Positions 4,709-40,000 of a DNA stretch of 42,038 nucleotides are shown in pieces (the stretch's first letter is position 1; every line of letters begins with the position of its first letter). Under the pieces are notes generated by a model, which ran no database searches, was not told the origin of the DNA, and worked only from the letters and a program-made list of their open reading frames with translations. The translations under genes were made by a program, and so were the position numbers. Origin of the DNA: a virus. The stretch is from IMG/VR virus record IMGVR_UViG_3300005253_000482, positions 1 to 42,038 of that record, one strand, 5' to 3'.

Positions 4709-5227
4709 ATGAGGAGAAACCTGAAATGCAAAAACTGTGGAGCTGAATTTGAGAGTACACGAAGCGATGCTAAGTGGTGTGGTGAATGTAGAAAAAGACG
4801 GATGCGAGAAGGGTTATCCACTATTTGCCCTGATTGCGGAAATACCAAATATACTACATCACACCGATGCCAGTCCTGTGAAAACAAGCATCGTGCCCAA
4901 AAGGGCGAGAGGTCTTGGAACTGGAAAGGCGGTAGAGGCAAACATAAAGGGGGCTATGTCATTATTCTCAAGCCTCAAGGATATGAAAACCTTAAACACC
5001 GTTATGTCTTTGAGCATCGAGTCATCTGGGAAAAAGCGAATGGCAAGTTACCTGAAGGTTATGTCATACATCACCTTAATGGTATCAAGGATGATAACCG
5101 CCTTGAGAACCTTGTTCCTCTTCCCCGTTCAGCACATTCAGGGTCAACAGTACTCAATGTCTTCAAATCTCGCATCCGAGAACTGGAGTCGCAAATCAGG
5201 GCGCTTCAGTCAACCACACCTGCTTGA
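4709..5227 (+). CDS. HNH homing-type endonuclease with zinc knuckles
   Basis: 172 aa. N-terminal CxxC pairs at residues 7/10, 24/27, 40/43 and 54/57 form zinc knuckles for DNA binding. The HNH core is YVFEHRVIW followed by HHLNGIKDDNRLENLV (residues 111-126; catalytic His pair and Asn residues). The C-terminus (140-168) is a short coiled coil. Free-standing enzymes of this kind nick or cut a site in a phage lacking the gene and spread by repair. It is wedged between coat and decoration genes with its own promoter, and is paralogous to the HNH gene at 9637 over the catalytic and coiled-coil parts. Confidence 0.92.
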   Translation: MRRNLKCKNCGAEFESTRSDAKWCGECRKRRMREGLSTICPDCGNTKYTTSHRCQSCENKHRAQKGERSWNWKGGRGKHKGGYVIILKPQGYENLKHRYVFEHRVIWEKANGKLPEGYVIHHLNGIKDDNRLENLVPLPRSAHSGSTVLNVFKSRIRELESQIRALQSTTPA

Positions 5228-9625: not shown

Positions 9626-9636
9626 GGAGGTAGATG

Positions 9637-10185
9637 ATGCCTAAAACATTTGATACTTTGATCAATGAAGTACAGTCACCACAGATAGGTGAAATCAGAA
9701 GGGGCGATAAAATTGGTAGAGTCTCTTCAGTATTATCGAACTTTATTTGGGCTGCCTGCATTGATTGCGGAAAGGAGCGTTGGGTTAGATACATTCGTAA
9801 AGCACCAGAATTTCAGAGATGCTTGGCGTGTAGCAAGGTCGGAAACAAAAATAATTGGCAAGGTGGGCGAACGTATTTTGATGGTTATATAATGATTCAT
9901 ACCCCAAACCATTATCGTGCTAATTCTAGGAGCTATGTCTTTGAGCATATTCTGGTCTGGGAAAGAGTACACAATAGGAAGCTGCCTACAGGATGGGTTA
10001 TCCACCACCTGAATGGTATAAAAGATGACAATCGTCCTGAGAATTTAGTTGCTCTGAAGAGGGGGGAACATACTCACCTAGAAAAACCTTTCAAGGAGAG
10101 GATTCGTACACTTGAAATGAAAGTAGAACTTCTTGAAAAGGCATTAGACGCAAACCAGTTAATATATAAACTGGAGGAAAATTAA
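9637..10185 (+). CDS. HNH homing-type endonuclease with captured adaptor N-terminus
   Basis: 182 aa from ATG 9637 (GGAGG six nt upstream; ATG 9634 is too close). The first residues MPKTFDTLINEVQS copy the start of the next gene, MAKTFAALVNEIQS. Then CxxC at about 42-45 and 62-65 (zinc knuckle), and the HNH core YVFEHILVW and HHLNGIKDDNRPENLV, followed by a coiled coil. Paralogue of the HNH at 4709. Ends one nt before the adaptor ATG, whose GGAGG lies inside this gene. It has no obvious promoter of its own, using the operon instead. The copied 5' end suggests it moved in with, or next to, the adaptor start. Confidence 0.9.
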   Translation: MPKTFDTLINEVQSPQIGEIRRGDKIGRVSSVLSNFIWAACIDCGKERWVRYIRKAPEFQRCLACSKVGNKNNWQGGRTYFDGYIMIHTPNHYRANSRSYVFEHILVWERVHNRKLPTGWVIHHLNGIKDDNRPENLVALKRGEHTHLEKPFKERIRTLEMKVELLEKALDANQLIYKLEEN

Positions 10186-19416: not shown

Positions 19417-19884
19417 ATGCCATACAAAAACAGAGAAGACAGACTAGCACACGATAGACGATATAGCCGGGAGCACCCGGAATATGCAAAACTGCATAGA
19501 GCAGCCCATCTAGAAAGATATAAAGAATTAGCTCACTTGTGGTATAAGAGAAATAAGGAAAAAGTGATAGCCAACGTCAAAAAGCATTCCCAAGCGTACA
19601 GGGAGCGCAGAAACGAACTGAACCGCAAGCGGCGGCAAGCACTAAAAATAGAAGTTCTAACTCATTATAGTAATGGTAAATGTGCTTGCGTGCGGTGTGG
19701 ATTTGATGATTTGATGGCACTAAGTATTGACCATATAGAGGGTGGGGGCGCGAAACATCGGCGGGAAATCAGGGGTTTAACGATTTATTACTGGCTGACC
19801 CTCCAGGGATTCCCCAGCGGATATCAGGTGTTGTGTATGAATTGCCAGTTTATTAAAAAATGGGGAGAGCGGAATGAAAAATGA
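19417..19884 (+). CDS. HNH homing-type endonuclease, CxxC type
   Basis: 155 aa. The N-terminal 75 residues are very basic and helical (RRYSREHPEYAKLHRAAHLE), a DNA-binding arm. Then CVRCGF(D)DL, LSIDHIEGGGAKHRRE and VLCMNCQFIKKW: the zinc-bound beta-beta-alpha HNH core with metal Cys pairs at both ends. It is the same subfamily as the gene at 23627 (matching DHI(E/N)GGG and CxxCGF). The HNH gene has its own promoter and separates a gene fragment (19305) from a look-alike full gene (19874). Confidence 0.9.
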   Translation: MPYKNREDRLAHDRRYSREHPEYAKLHRAAHLERYKELAHLWYKRNKEKVIANVKKHSQAYRERRNELNRKRRQALKIEVLTHYSNGKCACVRCGFDDLMALSIDHIEGGGAKHRREIRGLTIYYWLTLQGFPSGYQVLCMNCQFIKKWGERNEK

Positions 19885-20358: not shown

Positions 20359-20748
20359 ATGCAATTACTTGAAGAGAGAAAACCTGCCCGAGTTAGACAA
20401 AAAGTATATCGACTTATTCAAAGAGGTGAGTTAGTTAGGGCATCTGTCTGTGAAGAGTGCCAAGCGGAAGCATATACATTACCGCATCATCCAGATTATG
20501 ATAAACCATTAGAGATAAGATGGCTTTGCCCATCGTGTCATGCTAAATTAGATTGCCCAGCGCATAAGCCAAAGAAAAGAGGGCATTGTGCTGATGGCCG
20601 TGGAAATAGACCAAAGACAGAGAGAAATCAGAAGATTATGGAATACTGGGATAGGGGATATCGCCAGAACTCCATAGCAAAGATGTTCAAGATGAAGGTT
20701 TCGGCTGTTGGGATGGTAATCTTTAGAGAGAAGAAGGCGGGGAGGTAA
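20359..20748 (+). CDS. HNH-like zinc protein with HTH tail
   Basis: 129 aa. CEEC at 31-34, LPHHPDYDKPLEI (42-54) and CPSCHAKL (57-64) give the Cys/His pattern of a compact HNH/zinc module; the C-terminal half (about 90-125) is a helix-turn-helix style region (YRQNSIAKMFKMKVSAVGMVI). Co-transcribed with the leaderless gene. Either a homing-type nuclease or a zinc-finger regulator; catalytic His pair HH43-44 is present, Asn less clear. Confidence 0.65.
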   Translation: MQLLEERKPARVRQKVYRLIQRGELVRASVCEECQAEAYTLPHHPDYDKPLEIRWLCPSCHAKLDCPAHKPKKRGHCADGRGNRPKTERNQKIMEYWDRGYRQNSIAKMFKMKVSAVGMVIFREKKAGR

Positions 20749-23626: not shown

Positions 23627-24127
23627 ATGCCATATAAGGATAAGGTAAGGCAGAGAGAATGCAATCGCCAGTATAGCCTATCACACAAGAAAGAACGAGC
23701 TTTGTGGATGAAACTTTATAGGCAACGCCCCGAGGTGGTAATCAAAAGACGAGAATACCAAAGAAAATATTCGAGGCGGTATAGAGCTGCTCACCCAGAG
23801 ATAACGGCAAAGAGGAGGAAGGAATTTAATCAAAGCCACCGCTCCCAAGTCAATGCCTATGTCCGGGCTAGAAAACGAAAACTCCGCCAAGAAGTGATTG
23901 CCCATTTTGGTAGCAAGTGTGTGCATTGCGGTTTTAGCGACTGGCGAGCACTTCAGATTGACCATATTAATGGAGGAGGAAGCGAGATATTCAAGACAAA
24001 CTACTGTGTATCTACCTACTACAAAACTTTATTGAGGGAAACTCCTGGGGAAAATTTCCAACTTTTATGTGCGAATTGTAATCAGATAAAAAGGTATACA
24101 AACTATGAGGGGGTAGTGCGAGATTAG
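23627..24127 (+). CDS. HNH homing-type endonuclease, CxxC type
   Basis: 166 aa. Basic helical arm (about 1-85, many RR and KR pairs), then CVHCGFSDWRALQIDHINGGGSE with later CANCNQIKRY: the same core as the HNH at 19417. Has its own promoter and GAGAGGAG site. Sits between the annealing gene and a small membrane gene. It would promote its own spread. The 168 nt after it (24128-24295) show no convincing gene. Confidence 0.9.
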   Translation: MPYKDKVRQRECNRQYSLSHKKERALWMKLYRQRPEVVIKRREYQRKYSRRYRAAHPEITAKRRKEFNQSHRSQVNAYVRARKRKLRQEVIAHFGSKCVHCGFSDWRALQIDHINGGGSEIFKTNYCVSTYYKTLLRETPGENFQLLCANCNQIKRYTNYEGVVRD

Positions 24128-25313: not shown

Positions 25314-25585
25314 CACTAAAGGAGTTGAAAGAGAAGGCACGGCTGACTAATGAGGAGATTACCACCCTCCAGTTAGATGTTACAACTCCTAACAGGGCTT
25401 TCAATGCTATGGAACGATTAAAGAAAGCCCAGCTAGACAAAGCCTATGGGGAAACCCTCATCCAGTTCTGTGACAATGAACACATATACAAAGTAACAGA
25501 CTTAACCGCCATCCCCATGAAATACCTTAAATACTTCAAGCCAGTAGCAAAGGTGTTTGGGTCTGTTAAAAAGGTGCTGGGGTGA
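25310..25585 (+). CDS. Hypothetical protein, 91 aa
   Basis: Helical soluble protein, TNEEITTLQLDVTTPNRAF and a basic tail. Overlaps both neighbours by 4 nt. AAGGAGG upstream. Not recognised; the early-region position fits a small regulator or DNA-binding factor. Confidence 0.55.
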   Translation: MTLKELKEKARLTNEEITTLQLDVTTPNRAFNAMERLKKAQLDKAYGETLIQFCDNEHIYKVTDLTAIPMKYLKYFKPVAKVFGSVKKVLG

Positions 25586-25977
25586 AGTGTGGCAAGCCAC
25601 TCAAGAAAACCCTGCTCAAGCGAGGCAAGGGGATAAATCCTATAAGCCCGGAGCAGAAGCAGATTAACATAGAGTGGGATGCCCTTGTCGGGTATCTTGC
25701 CGAGAATCGGGCTGATTGGGAATGTGAGATACCTTGCGGTGGCCGGTATAACCTTCAGGGACACCATATTATTAAGCGCTCCCAAGGTGGGCTCCACAAC
25801 GCTGGCAACTGTCTCATTGCTTGCCATGACTGCCACCGCCATGATAAGTGGGGACCAGGCATCCCAATACCTGCAGAGGAAGCCCTGGTTCTGGTGGCAG
25901 GGCTCAACAAGAAGTATAATATAGACGGGGAAATGACCGGAGCCGATGTATTGAGGATGACCAAAGGGGCGAACTGA
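25582..25977 (+). CDS. HNH endonuclease (NinG/recombination type)
   Basis: 131 aa from GTG, which overlaps the previous stop. Very basic start (KCGKPLKKTLLKRGKG) then LQGHHIIKRSQGG (59-70) and CLIACHDCHRHDKWG (77-91): His pair, Asn76 and Cys metal ligands of HNH. The short KxxLKRxxP start is typical of phage HNH proteins near recombination genes, rather than of the mobile ones. It could process recombination intermediates. The C-terminal MTGADVLRMTKG is copied at 26226. Confidence 0.8.
   Translation: MKCGKPLKKTLLKRGKGINPISPEQKQINIEWDALVGYLAENRADWECEIPCGGRYNLQGHHIIKRSQGGLHNAGNCLIACHDCHRHDKWGPGIPIPAEEALVLVAGLNKKYNIDGEMTGADVLRMTKGAN
25931..25950 (+). repeat. 20 bp direct repeat, copy 1
   Basis: aaatgaccggagccgatgta is repeated exactly at 26224-26243, 293 nt downstream, and encodes the MTGADVL end of the HNH protein. 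Flanks the small membrane gene. Confidence 0.85.
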
Positions 25978-28261: not shown

Positions 28262-28417
28262 ATGGCACGATATAAGAACTATATTACTAAGGTTACCTGC
28301 TGGAATTGCCGAGAGCAAATGCGAATTAAAATCCCTGTCGGGATGAAGGCAACAGAGATTTGTTGCCCTCGGTGTGGATGTAAGGAATTGATGTCTGGTC
28401 ATTTGACTTGGCAATGA
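28262..28417 (+). CDS. Zinc-ribbon mini protein
   Basis: 51 aa with GGGGGAAGAA before ATG. CWNC at 12-15 and CPRCGC at about 34-39 form a zinc ribbon. Not recognised; similar small ribbons recur in this genome. Confidence 0.65.
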   Translation: MARYKNYITKVTCWNCREQMRIKIPVGMKATEICCPRCGCKELMSGHLTWQ

Positions 28418-28438: not shown

Positions 28439-28531
28439 ATGATACGATATCCTAAGCTAATGGCAACACTAGCACTGACGGCCACCTGGCTCGTTATGAT
28501 GCTGATTCTGGCGAGGTGTGGGGTGATATGA
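28439..28531 (+). CDS. Tiny membrane peptide
   Basis: 30 aa, single hydrophobic helix (LALTATWLVMMLILARC). No ordinary SD; instead the 19 bp repeat lies before ATG. Stop overlaps the next ATG. Confidence 0.45.
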   Translation: MIRYPKLMATLALTATWLVMMLILARCGVI

Positions 28532-28641
28532 AAAAGCCCGATGAACCCTGCTTTATTTGCGGGTCAGATGAGTGGTGGCTCCGGGGTAAGGACTGGCTTT
28601 GCTCAAGATGTCATCCGGAGGCAAAGGAGAGGAAAAGATGA
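28528..28641 (+). CDS. Zinc-ribbon mini protein
   Basis: 37 aa: CFICGSDEWWLRGKDWLCSRCHPE is a complete small zinc finger (two CxxC pairs plus His). ATGA coupled to both neighbours. Probably binds nucleic acid or protein. Confidence 0.6.
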   Translation: MKKPDEPCFICGSDEWWLRGKDWLCSRCHPEAKERKR

Positions 28642-28691
28642 AAACTACTATCTATGTCGAGCCAAAGAGCAAAGGGCTATTGATGTCATAG
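28638..28691 (+). CDS. Mini frame, 17 aa, possibly truncated
   Basis: Starts in the previous stop and runs into the RusA promoter at 28680. The short length and overlap with the promoter suggest a gene cut off by the arrival of the RusA cassette. Weak evidence. Confidence 0.3.
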   Translation: MKTTIYVEPKSKGLLMS

Positions 28692-28708
28692 ATAATTTAT
28701 AGTATACT
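28680..28708 (+). promoter_or_regulatory. Promoter of RusA-zinc gene, leaderless type
   Basis: TTGATG (28680-28685), 17 nt, TATACT (28703-28708), then 6 nt and ATG 28715. Same -10 to ATG distance as at 20225-20232. Confidence 0.8.
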
Positions 28709-28714
28709 TAGAAT

Positions 28715-29524
28715 ATGGTTACTACTATCCTAAATAAGCCTTACCGCTTAAATCCAAAACAGGTCTTGCTTAATCTCACAATAGAAGGTGAACCGATAGC
28801 TTGCGCTAGACCAAGGTTAGGTAAATATGGAACATATATCCCTGCTAAAAACCAAGAGTATTATGACCTTGTTGGATGGCACATTAAAAATGTATATCAA
28901 GGTAACATAGATACTGATGCATGTTTTGGGTTGAGAGTAATATTTTTTCGCTCTAACCGTCAACGCGTGGATATTGATAATCTACTCAAGAGTATCATGG
29001 ATGCTATAACTAAAGTACAGGTATGGGGTGATGATTCTCAAGTTAGGGAAATCTCTGGGCGCCTTATACTCGCCGATAAAAATCCGCGAGTTGAGTTTGT
29101 AATATACCACACTCAAGATTTTTCACCGGTGGCAAATTGTGTTCACTGTGGCAAACCACTAAGAAACTCTTATCCATCTAAGAAAACAACTTACTGCTCA
29201 AGAGAATGTTTTTTCGCATCCCGAAGGGTATCTAGGACTTGTACTTTTTGTAGGAGGGTTTTCACTATTGCTCAATCGAAGACTAAGCAGCATCCTTCTC
29301 TCTACTGCTCACGTGAATGTAATCTTAAAACTATAGCACAAAAACGGAAAGCTAATAAAACAACTGCTAAGTGTAAAACTTGTGGTGGGCCAGTAAGTCG
29401 CAAGGAATATAAACACTGTTTATCATGTTACCTTAAATCAAGGAAGATCACGAGTAACTACTGGAAACATAGACCACAGCAGTTATCAAAAAGAGATTCG
29501 GGGATCCACCTCGGATTGAATTAG
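28715..29524 (+). CDS. RusA-type resolvase fused to zinc-knuckle array
   Basis: 269 aa. Residues 1-135 are a RusA Holliday-junction nuclease: D86 and D88 in VDIDNLLKS, Lys92, and D106/D107 in WGDDSQV, all catalytic positions conserved. Residues 142-240 add zinc knuckles (CVHCGK, CSREC, CTFC, CSREC, CKTC, CLSC) not found in ordinary RusA of about 120-140 aa, but like those of free-standing HNH homing enzymes. It has its own promoter and no leader. It could resolve branched DNA or act as a site-directed mobile nuclease. Nuclease domain call is strong; mobility is inference. Confidence 0.85.
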   Translation: MVTTILNKPYRLNPKQVLLNLTIEGEPIACARPRLGKYGTYIPAKNQEYYDLVGWHIKNVYQGNIDTDACFGLRVIFFRSNRQRVDIDNLLKSIMDAITKVQVWGDDSQVREISGRLILADKNPRVEFVIYHTQDFSPVANCVHCGKPLRNSYPSKKTTYCSRECFFASRRVSRTCTFCRRVFTIAQSKTKQHPSLYCSRECNLKTIAQKRKANKTTAKCKTCGGPVSRKEYKHCLSCYLKSRKITSNYWKHRPQQLSKRDSGIHLGLN

Positions 29525-29546: not shown

Positions 29547-29948
29547 ATGGACAAAAGAAAGTTAGTGCTTACAGTCAAAGAGGCAAAGAACATTGAGGTA
29601 GGCGGTAGATTGGCGATAAAGAGACTCCTTGATTTAGGGCGTATAAGCGAGGAGGAATTTGAAGCCATAAGCCTTGCCACTGTAAAGAAGGCTGAACCCC
29701 TGATACGGCAGGATGAAGCTGTTAAATGGATTAAAGCCCTGATGAGGGGGGGGATTATGGTATCCAAGCCCGAACAGCTAATAGGTGCGGGGGAGCGGAT
29801 ACGGAAGGATACCTTGAGTGAGGTAATGGAAATCGTTAGGGAATATCAACTAGATGGTTGTTTGGCACGTGATGATTACCTAGTAAGAAGAGCAAAGGGG
29901 TGGCTAAAACTTGACGCCCTCAAAGCCACAGAAGGTAAGGAGGGGTGA
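29547..29948 (+). CDS. Hypothetical protein
   Basis: 133 aa, helical, with ATG after GGAGG. Residues 20-60 (AIKRLLDLGRISEEEFEAIS) are a helical hairpin and 85-125 another (RKDTLSEVMEIVREYQ). Soluble; not recognised. Confidence 0.6.
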   Translation: MDKRKLVLTVKEAKNIEVGGRLAIKRLLDLGRISEEEFEAISLATVKKAEPLIRQDEAVKWIKALMRGGIMVSKPEQLIGAGERIRKDTLSEVMEIVREYQLDGCLARDDYLVRRAKGWLKLDALKATEGKEG

Positions 29949-29949
29949 G

Positions 29950-30303
29950 ATGAAGATAAAACCTTGTGTCCAATGTGGCGAGTGTTGTAAAAGTGGTGTT
30001 TCTTGTATCTTCGGGCAAATACTTTTTGATATTACCGAGGATGACCCAACATCTTGCCCTGCCTTGGAATATGAGAAAGGGTTATATTGGTGTGGGCTTA
30101 TACGAAACCCTATAAAGTGGTTTGCCCCCTTAGTCGGAGATGTGGGGTGGAAGTGTGAAGCGATGGCAGATATTACTCGTATCTACATTGGGATAGGGGC
30201 TGGCTGTTGTATGAGTCCTTCCAAGGAAGAGATAATAATTAAAATGAAGGAACGCTTTGCTATTCGTAAGAAGCCCTTCTCTGTCGGCACCGGGTCGCCT
30301 TGA
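29950..30303 (+). CDS. YkgJ-like cysteine-cluster protein
   Basis: 117 aa from ATG 29950, which has GGAGGGG upstream; an in-frame longer start at 29911 lies in the previous gene. CVQCGECCKSGVSC (Cys 6, 9, 12, 13, 19) plus Cys 36 and 48 is the CxxCxxCC cluster of the YkgJ family, thought to bind zinc or iron-sulfur. Role in phage unknown. Confidence 0.7.
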   Translation: MKIKPCVQCGECCKSGVSCIFGQILFDITEDDPTSCPALEYEKGLYWCGLIRNPIKWFAPLVGDVGWKCEAMADITRIYIGIGAGCCMSPSKEEIIIKMKERFAIRKKPFSVGTGSP

Positions 30304-32327: not shown

Positions 32328-32651
32328 TTAAAAGTAGTGTCTCGCTATTTCCATGGTTTGCTCTGCGGTGAACCAACTGCCCTTCATTAAGTTGCATCGC
32401 CTACAAGCCACAGCCACATTATTCTTAATGTATCCCCTGCGGTTGTCCTTTCTATCAATCGTTCTATCAGTGAGGCGGTGCTTATGTCCGGTGCCTATGG
32501 TTAGCCTTTCTCCACAGTAATAACAATTAGTTTGCTGAGATAATTCCCCTATATCCTGTAAAGATAAATTGAATTCGGTTTTATCTCCTATAGCCTTGTA
32601 AAGCAATTTGTGATACCTTCCCTTAACAGTATTGCGGTAGTAATTGCTCAT
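32328..32651 (-). CDS. HNH endonuclease, N-terminally truncated
   Basis: 107 aa from ATG 32651. CYYCGERL (43-50), TIDRKDNRRGYIKNN (64-78) and CRRCNLMKG (83-91) form an HNH core with Asp/Arg in place of the first His, as in many phage versions. The frame continues upstream without a start codon and encodes GYRSYCKACNAKY, an orphan half zinc knuckle, up to a stop at 32703-32705, so the usual N-terminus is missing. Its nuclease part may still be expressed. Confidence 0.75.
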   Translation of the reverse strand: MSNYYRNTVKGRYHKLLYKAIGDKTEFNLSLQDIGELSQQTNCYYCGERLTIGTGHKHRLTDRTIDRKDNRRGYIKNNVAVACRRCNLMKGSWFTAEQTMEIARHYF

Positions 32652-37081: not shown

Positions 37082-40000
37082 ATGCCAGTACCGAGTTTAG
37101 AGTATGTTGAACTTTTAAGGGCAAGGGAAAAGAAAGCCAAGGCTTTACCCGAACCTGTTGTTGAACCTCCTGTTATTCCCGAACCAGCTCCCCCTAGAGA
37201 AGAGGGGTATTTAACACAAGAACAAGCCAAGGCACAATATGGTCTTGACCTTGACCCTGGGTGGCAGGCGAGGGTTCGAATCCATCCTCAAATGGGGGAG
37301 CAAGTCTCTTATCTCTCACCCGAAGGTTGGAAATATGAACAGGTAAGGTGGGATGAGGCAGGCAATGTTACTGATTATTTAGCCTTTGACCCTGAAGGAA
37401 GGGCATTCGGTAAAGCAGAACTGGAAGAACTTGAAGTTTCTATTGCTGAGGAAGCCCGCATACAAGAAGAAGTATTAGCACCATTCGAGGCAGTGTTCCC
37501 GGGGATTGATGTTGAGGGATTGTTCGCAAGTATGGCCGTTACGCCCGACATGTCAAGGCGTGAACGCTTGGGCCCGGAGCAAGCACAAGATGACTTCATT
37601 GATGCTATCCAGGAAATAGGGAGGACTTCTGAGACTGAGGCTATCCTAAGACAACTGGGAATTGAGGAAACTGATATCGGTTTGTTCTTCCCCGAAGAGG
37701 AGGGGGAAAATATTACTGCCCTTATACCTGAACCAGAACCCGAAGTAGTGGAACCTGCTCTATGGCAAAGGGTACTTGAATATGGGCTATATCCCTTCAC
37801 CTTCTTCGGAATAAAGATGAAGGAAACAGTTGATGCATTTAAGGAGTTGCCTGAAATATTGAAAGATATCCCATCTTTTATAGCTAGAGATGCGGATGTC
37901 AGTGCTTACGAAGGTGTAAATAAGTTTATTAGGGCTGGACTTATGGGACAAATAGCTGAGCCTTTTATACCCGAAGATGCCCCCGAGGAAGTACAAGCTC
38001 TCTTTGCCGCACCCAAGATGGCTGATTATTTTATAGGTGGTGCAGAATATAATGAGTTTAGGCAGTTACCTTGGTGGCAACAGTTACTTTATGAATTACC
38101 TCTATGGATGACTATTCCCGGGGCTGCTGCCACCAGAGGGGCTTTAGCTCCGACAATCGCTAGGGGTGGTGCCAAGGCAATTCCAGCCAGGGTAGTCAGC
38201 GGTGCTTTAAGACCAGCCGTTGCCGTAGAGAGGGCAATATCATTCCCAATCAGAAAGACATTTGAAAGAATAGCCCAGCGGAACTTCCACAGATATCTGG
38301 TGAGTCAAGGGATTGAACTCCCCCCCAAAGCCGAAAAGCTCTTGATGAATGTTTATGCCAAGTTCCCAATCGTCAGTCCCGATACTGGGGCTAAACTCTA
38401 TGCTACATTGGGGGCTAAGTATGGGAATAGGGCAGTGGCTGAGTATTATTCCTCCGGTAGACTTACTACTGACATCGTTAAGAGAATTATTGCCTATGCC
38501 GAGTCGCAAGGTGACAAAACACTTGCGAGGGCTGGCCAAAAGTTCTTGCTTCGCTTAGAGAGAAGTGGGCGTGTCGAAGCAGGGGTTGACTTACTCACAG
38601 ATAAATTTGCCGTAGACTTTACCAAGGCATTCGAGGAAATAGGGGCAAAAATCACCCCAGATATGGGTTACGAGATTTCTAGGGCTGCGGCAGAAGCAGC
38701 TAGACAATACTTCCCAATGCTCTATTCTACAGATGTTGCCCTTACGGGTGCTAACAAAATGACCCATACCCTCATGATGGATACTGTTTTACCCTCTCTG
38801 CTAGAACAGGCGCTAAAACCATCTGCCATCAATGCTGAATTGATAGCCTCCCTTATTGGTAAGGGTGTACTTGGGATAACTGCCAGCCTGACTAAGCAGT
38901 TGGAGAAAATAGGTCTTGATACTGCGACCATTGAAGCGATGTCTCCCAACGAGGCATGGGCTAGTTTACTTAGTGGTACAATCCCTACCCCAGCAGTGGA
39001 GGCAGTTACCCCAGAAGTCGCACCAGAAGCCCTCAGACCACCAACAGAGGTTGTTGCACCTGAAGTTGCCCCAGTGGTACCACAGGTGGTAAAGCCACCC
39101 GTTAAAAAGCCACCCATTATTGAAGCACCTGAAAGAACTGTAGTTAAAGAGGGCGGTGTCCCTGCCAGCCCTGCCGAGCCAATAGCAACGGGGGTATCGG
39201 ACAGTATCCCTGTGATAAAAGATATAGGGGCGAAGGAAAGGATTCGACCAGCACGTAAAGTCTTTGAGAAGATGGGTTTGTCTGAGGAATTTAGGGGTAT
39301 ACAGAGGGCAGAAGTTGAAAAGGGTGAGGCAAGGGTAGTCTTTGATAAGAAACTCAAAGAGATGTCCAAGTTGGTTGATAAAAATAGGCGGCATATAGTA
39401 TTCAGGGAAATAGAAAACCCTGGCTCGCAAGTTGGACTTACGTTTAATGAGAAGAGGGCAGTCGCTTTTTTTAGAACTAACTTCGATAAGTGGGCTGATA
39501 AACTAAATCTTTCCCAAGAAAAGCGGATTAAGAACTATATAACCCATATCTTTGAGGCTGATATTACGGAGCAGTTAAAAGCCAAACACCCAATGGATGC
39601 TGCTATGGCTAAGGCATTGGAATACCTAGCACCCAAGAAGATATTTAACCCCTTCTTACAGGAGAGATTAGGGGCGACTGTTGGTTTGATTGAAGATCCA
39701 TTCGCTGCTGCCTCTGCCTATGAGTCCAGGCAACTAAAGGTGCTTTATTATGAACCATTCTTAGAGAAGTTAGCTGCCATTGCCAATGATGTAAATACCC
39801 CCCGGGCTGCGAGAAATTATCTGAAAGACTACTCTATGCGTATGACAGGTGAACCATCCAAGCTTGACTTAGAGATAAACACAACCCTTCAGGAGTTTGC
39901 CGAGAAATTAAAGGGGTTGCCTGGCGGCAATATACTCGCAAACTATTTAAGCAGGGGGAATCCTTCGGGAATGGCATCCTATAACTTCACAAGTGCGCTA

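Follow-up and report, generated by a model that had tools for sequence, protein, structure and literature searches.

The window analysed here is a 42,038-nucleotide stretch of viral DNA (positions 1 to 42,038 of IMG/VR record IMGVR_UViG_3300005253_000482). It possesses a gene, here named rusA-Zn, whose product contains a RusA resolvase domain followed by an array of C4 zinc fingers (Table 1). The domain was identified by its match to PF05866 over aa 25-130 (E 1.6e-16, 61.5 bits against the Pfam cut-off of 22.8), and several PHROG RusA families also matched the product. In phmmer alignment against PDB, D86, D88, K92 and D107 corresponded to D70, D72, K76 and D91 of E. coli RusA, and all four were invariant across 30 aligned sequences. 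The catalytic residues are intact, as the initial annotation had stated. An AlphaFold2 model built from 30 window and locus sequences had a mean pLDDT of 85, and its RusA part resembled 1q8r (Foldseek, TM 0.80, E 4e-8). The product is thus predicted to be a RusA fold with a basic tail. It gave no match in a defence-system library.

Table 1. Positions of rusA-Zn, its parts, nearby elements and HNH genes in the window.
Feature	Position	Strand	Description
rusA-Zn gene	28715..29524	+	269 aa: RusA resolvase domain and three-finger C4 zinc array
RusA catalytic domain, aa 25-130	28787..29104	+	PF05866; E. coli RusA alignment; Foldseek
Catalytic codons	D86 28970; D88 28976; K92 28988; D107 29033	+	
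Finger 1	29138..29209	+	C142 C145 ... C161 C165, YCSREC type
Finger 2	29240..29320	+	C176 C179 ... C198 C202, YCSREC type
Terminal finger	29372..29428	+	C220 C223 ... C235 C238 (CKTCGGPVSRKEYKHCLSC), then SNYWK
Sigma-70-like promoter (putative)	28680..28708	+	TTGATG-17-TATACT; consensus match only, not above shuffles
17-codon ORF upstream	about 28639..28692	+	'interrupted small gene' of the initial annotation
HNH genes above Pfam cut-off	4709-5227; 9634-10185; 25582-25977		
HNH genes, weak	23627-24127; 32328-32651 (-)		
HNH genes by motif only	19417-19884; 20359-20748		

Textbook RusA is a minimal enzyme of ~120 residues. The rusA-Zn product has the domain, catalytic residues and fold in common with E. 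coli RusA (1q8r, 2h8c; PF05866), which possesses 120 aa and no zinc fingers, whereas the present protein has 269 aa. Nearly all RusA proteins are about 120 aa long (PMC3485210). SPP1 G44P, an enlarged RusA-type dimer which cuts Holliday junctions, is likewise a phage RusA extended by an added region, but its extra 13 kDa is N-terminal and zinc is not mentioned (PMC3485210), while the array of rusA-Zn is C-terminal. DUF968-RusA fusions (mentioned in PMC4118853) also join RusA to a Cys-containing, nuclease-related domain; however, DUF968 carries an HNH motif, and no DUF968 (PF06147) match was found in the rusA-Zn product by Pfam at E 0.1.

In the window, rusA-Zn is neighboured by genes with weak matches to exonucleases, Rad52 and helicases, with the terminase downstream. 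It has no Shine-Dalgarno sequence, while most neighbours have one. Foreign codon usage was considered and rejected: its GC3 of 0.316 is the lowest among 49 called genes, but the codons chosen are normal (z 0.6). The private promoter proposed in the initial annotation is present as a consensus match, but such sites do not exceed chance, with three in the 2.2-kb region against a shuffle mean of 4.7. Judged from its position, the putative promoter would place the transcription start near the ATG and give a leaderless message, which is consistent with the missing Shine-Dalgarno sequence. Together with the lowest GC3, these features would fit a recent arrival of the gene. The proposal that it interrupts a small gene was not borne out, since the 17-codon upstream ORF has no second half downstream of 29524 and only 22 bases separate this stop from the next start at 29547. 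Relatives of the flanking genes were found in none of the viral contigs, and phages gave no DNA match. As the searches brought up no virus closely related to the window phage, no empty site could be shown, and residence at this exact site is judged from distant kin. Two tiny Cys-pair proteins (28262-28417 and 28516-28641) are encoded directly upstream of rusA-Zn, and a small Cys-pair ORF also lies just upstream of a zinc-less rusA at locus L042. A small protein at 29911-30303, which gave no Pfam or PHROG match, has a CxxCxxCC cluster that, judged by eye, may bind metal.

Zinc finger array of rusA-Zn

Six Cys pairs follow aa 141 (142/145, 161/165, 176/179, 198/202, 220/223 and 235/238), forming three C4 fingers. 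The count of about six pairs given in the initial annotation is therefore right, while its label 'zinc knuckle', a CCHC type, does not apply; its description of RusA fused to homing-type fingers is correct. The rusA-Zn ORF contains more CxxC/CxxxC motifs than any other ORF of the window, and because the array also recurs in relatives it is far beyond chance. In the secondary structure predicted with the AlphaFold2 model, each finger has a helix after its second Cys pair, an arrangement that is probably that of treble clefs. The array would bind zinc.

An HMM made from the arrays of other RusA proteins, with the window left out, scored the window array at 61.6 bits. The same HMM recognised a Vsr-like three-finger enzyme (L066, 44 bits) and the HNH enzyme at 4709-5227 of the window (22 bits). 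Between the window protein and its closest full-length relative, L126, all 12 array cysteines are kept while the other array residues are 40% identical; at a 40% rate per Cys, retention of 12/12 has a chance of about 1.5e-5. As judged from sequence comparison, the array is under selection. It is strongly basic, with a net charge of +20 per 100 aa compared with about +2 in the RusA part, and across the family the arrays range from +6 to +22 and are positive in 34/34. The PHROG HNH matches, among them phrog_1271 (E 1e-4), cover the finger region only. The phrog_1271 arrays, the HNH enzyme at 4709-5227 and the Vsr/DUF559 enzyme have CxxC...YCSxxC and CxxCG...RCxxC fingers as in rusA-Zn, attached to other nuclease domains instead of RusA. 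This resemblance to HNH and Vsr-like nuclease fingers probably reflects a common DNA-binding module, which its carriers would have in common through descent or exchange, and the fingers of rusA-Zn presumably bind DNA. When the array alone was used in tblastn against phages, no match was found. PDB profile matches of the array to classical C2H2 and RING proteins were judged compositional.

Relatives and their finger number

The search for RusA with repeated CxxC motifs recommended in the initial annotation revealed about 30 relatives with an array of one to four fingers in viral contigs and prophages. A degenerate DNA pattern combining the RusA motif with CxxC...YCS retrieved true fusions; among the matches of the DNA pattern scans, L006-L010 and most of L011-L040 were due to chance and were discarded once translated. 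With profile searches, full-length relatives came to light both in viral contigs and in the genomes of Streptomyces, Nonomuraea, Nocardia, Mycobacterium and Paraoerskovia, as well as in several MAGs. Closer kin are L126/L127 (39% over aa 16-253) and L128 (49%), which is without fingers. Most relatives possess three fingers, while four are present in L043, L044, L051, L105 and L109, two in L046 and one in L071 and L113-L115. Mycobacteriophages, L112, L120, L042, L049 and L128 have none. The mycobacteriophage resolvases (BigNuz gp52, Willsammy gp49) have a related domain (28-37% identity) and the same gene position as the zinc-bearing prophage relatives, but they are about 166 aa long and lack the array. 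A BigNuz gp52-gp53 match extending to aa 202 was a read-through of a stop, and a Vipetofem RusA match reached aa 168; zinc is absent from both. Downstream of the zinc-less RusA of L042, L049, L112, L120, L080, L076 and L128, inspection by eye showed no array in another frame or in a gene of its own.

The architecture was rare. Within the genus of L106, for which 296 genomes were searched, the L106 protein as query matched in 2, one of these matches being disrupted by stops, and the window protein gave a full-length match in 1 of the 199 genomes from the phylum of L104. In tblastn against 50,697 phage records no match covered 80% of a zinc-bearing query, and no description of RusA with a zinc array was found in the open-licence literature, whose partial coverage makes this weak evidence of novelty. 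On these two grounds, the architecture may have been overlooked. In L062, L072 and L004 the zinc-bearing RusA stops inside finger 2 and the rest of this finger lies in another frame, pointing to a frameshift or recent truncation. A zinc-bearing relative in the L106 genus (L206, G230) has two in-frame TGA codons and is probably decaying.

Comparison of loci showed the array to be present or absent at a fixed place. The most telling case is that of L106 (three fingers) and L112 (none), between which homologous genes are collinear for about 7 kb on each side, with RusA at the same spot. Similarly, the three-finger L059 and the zinc-less mycobacteriophages have related genes immediately before RusA (58-61% identity over about 350 aa), the one in Willsammy being annotated as FtsK-like. 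Both comparisons indicate that the tail varies while the resolvase keeps its place. At least six changes of zinc state were counted on a tree of RusA domains, and eight when a larger set was used; gain and loss are lumped in this count. A single clade of zinc-bearing sequences was rejected, while a clade with ten zinc-less kin added was not, so one origin followed by repeated loss is possible. The window RusA grouped with the zinc-less L128, L042 and L049 and with the zinc-bearing L126 (97/99 support); the domains nearest to it, L128 and L042, lack the array.

Gene families neighbouring the zinc-bearing relatives include RecT, YqaJ, DnaB, AAA_25, SSB, DNA methylases and replication initiators, and by eye L126 has RecT-like and replication-type genes upstream. 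HNH genes near the relatives were sought by profile scans, since a regex scan was too insensitive, and HNH_3 was present in only 4 of 112 neighbours of zinc-bearing relatives.

Role of the array

Related viruses carry this enzyme in one and the same position with anything from no finger to four, which makes the tail look like an optional add-on, a DNA-gripping addition to an ordinary resolvase. We consider it likely that rusA-Zn encodes a resident phage resolvase of branched DNA (Holliday junctions) whose strongly basic three-finger C-terminal array is an optional module. Of the two readings offered in the initial annotation, that of a junction resolvase fits better. We infer that the product dimerises and cuts junctions: the RusA domain, probably as a dimer, would cut four-way or replication/recombination branches, while the fingers probably grip the duplex arms beside the branch, a grip which may raise affinity or alter substrate choice. 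In plant topoisomerase 3-alpha, zinc finger T1 was concluded to target the enzyme to Holliday-junction-like intermediates (PMC6160208). The module, presumably homologous to the arrays on other phage DNA enzymes, would come and go, and grow or shrink, while the resolvase keeps its place within the replication/recombination module. Zero to four C-terminal fingers at one locus would then represent a natural experiment on what a DNA-binding tail does to a junction resolvase, and the finger arrays of homing-type nucleases would be a shared module joined to housekeeping phage enzymes as well.

The new class of mobile nuclease suggested in the initial annotation, in which the fingers read a long site in relatives free of the gene, RusA cuts it and repair copies the gene in, is very improbable. 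The likeness of the fingers to HNH (phrog_1271, E 1e-4) and Vsr-like (L066, 44 bits) arrays, the low GC3, the missing Shine-Dalgarno sequence, the possible own promoter and the richness of the window phage in HNH genes would all suit it. However, the relatives are placed in replication/recombination modules, comparable loci vary in the tail at a fixed place and not in the whole gene, and no interrupted gene was found, nor, with only distant kin to compare, an empty site. RusA is a structure-selective enzyme, which also argues against homing, and a homing nuclease domain is absent: RusA was the sole catalytic domain found in rusA-Zn with Pfam and PHROG, where the HNH matches are confined to the fingers, and no HNH, GIY-YIG, LAGLIDADG or Vsr-like catalytic domain was found. 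According to the initial annotation, its reading would be refuted by a shared position of the gene in every relative together with a zinc part that is only a structural appendage of normal resolvases. The outcome comes close to this, since zinc-bearing and zinc-less RusA occupy one position in collinear loci.

Three to four tandem, strongly basic fingers with diverging residues between fixed cysteines are what a resolvase sent by its fingers to one place in the genome, such as an origin, a packaging or a recombination site, might display. This reading is unlikely, as the fingers show no sign of base-specific contacts and kin with one finger (L071, L113-L115) or none exist; the role of the gene thus does not depend on targeting. 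Its extension, that the arrays are evolvable DNA readers in which finger number and contact residues set the site of a site-directed junction resolvase, is likewise unlikely; if true, different phages would each direct branch resolution to particular places (origin, packaging or recombination sites). Treble-clef fingers are able to bind proteins, and the array comes and goes easily, as would suit a mainly protein-protein or folding appendage that docks, for example, to the replication or packaging machine. The net charge of about +20 per 100 aa and the occurrence of array homologues on DNA-cutting enzymes make this role improbable, and the optional DNA-gripping module is preferred.

Fingers of the same type on other phage proteins

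The window phage possesses many HNH-type genes, several of which have Cys-pair fingers of their own. At L066 9068-9922 (-), corresponding to about 37995-38849 of Mycobacterium phage Willsammy, an ORF without annotation lies antisense to gp53; its product combines a Vsr/DUF559-like nuclease domain with three fingers like those of rusA-Zn. Three phage ORFs which are WhiB-like by eye (L065 1307-2074, L077 1399-2166 and L082 1727-2314) end in a single finger of this type and look like another carrier protein for the module.
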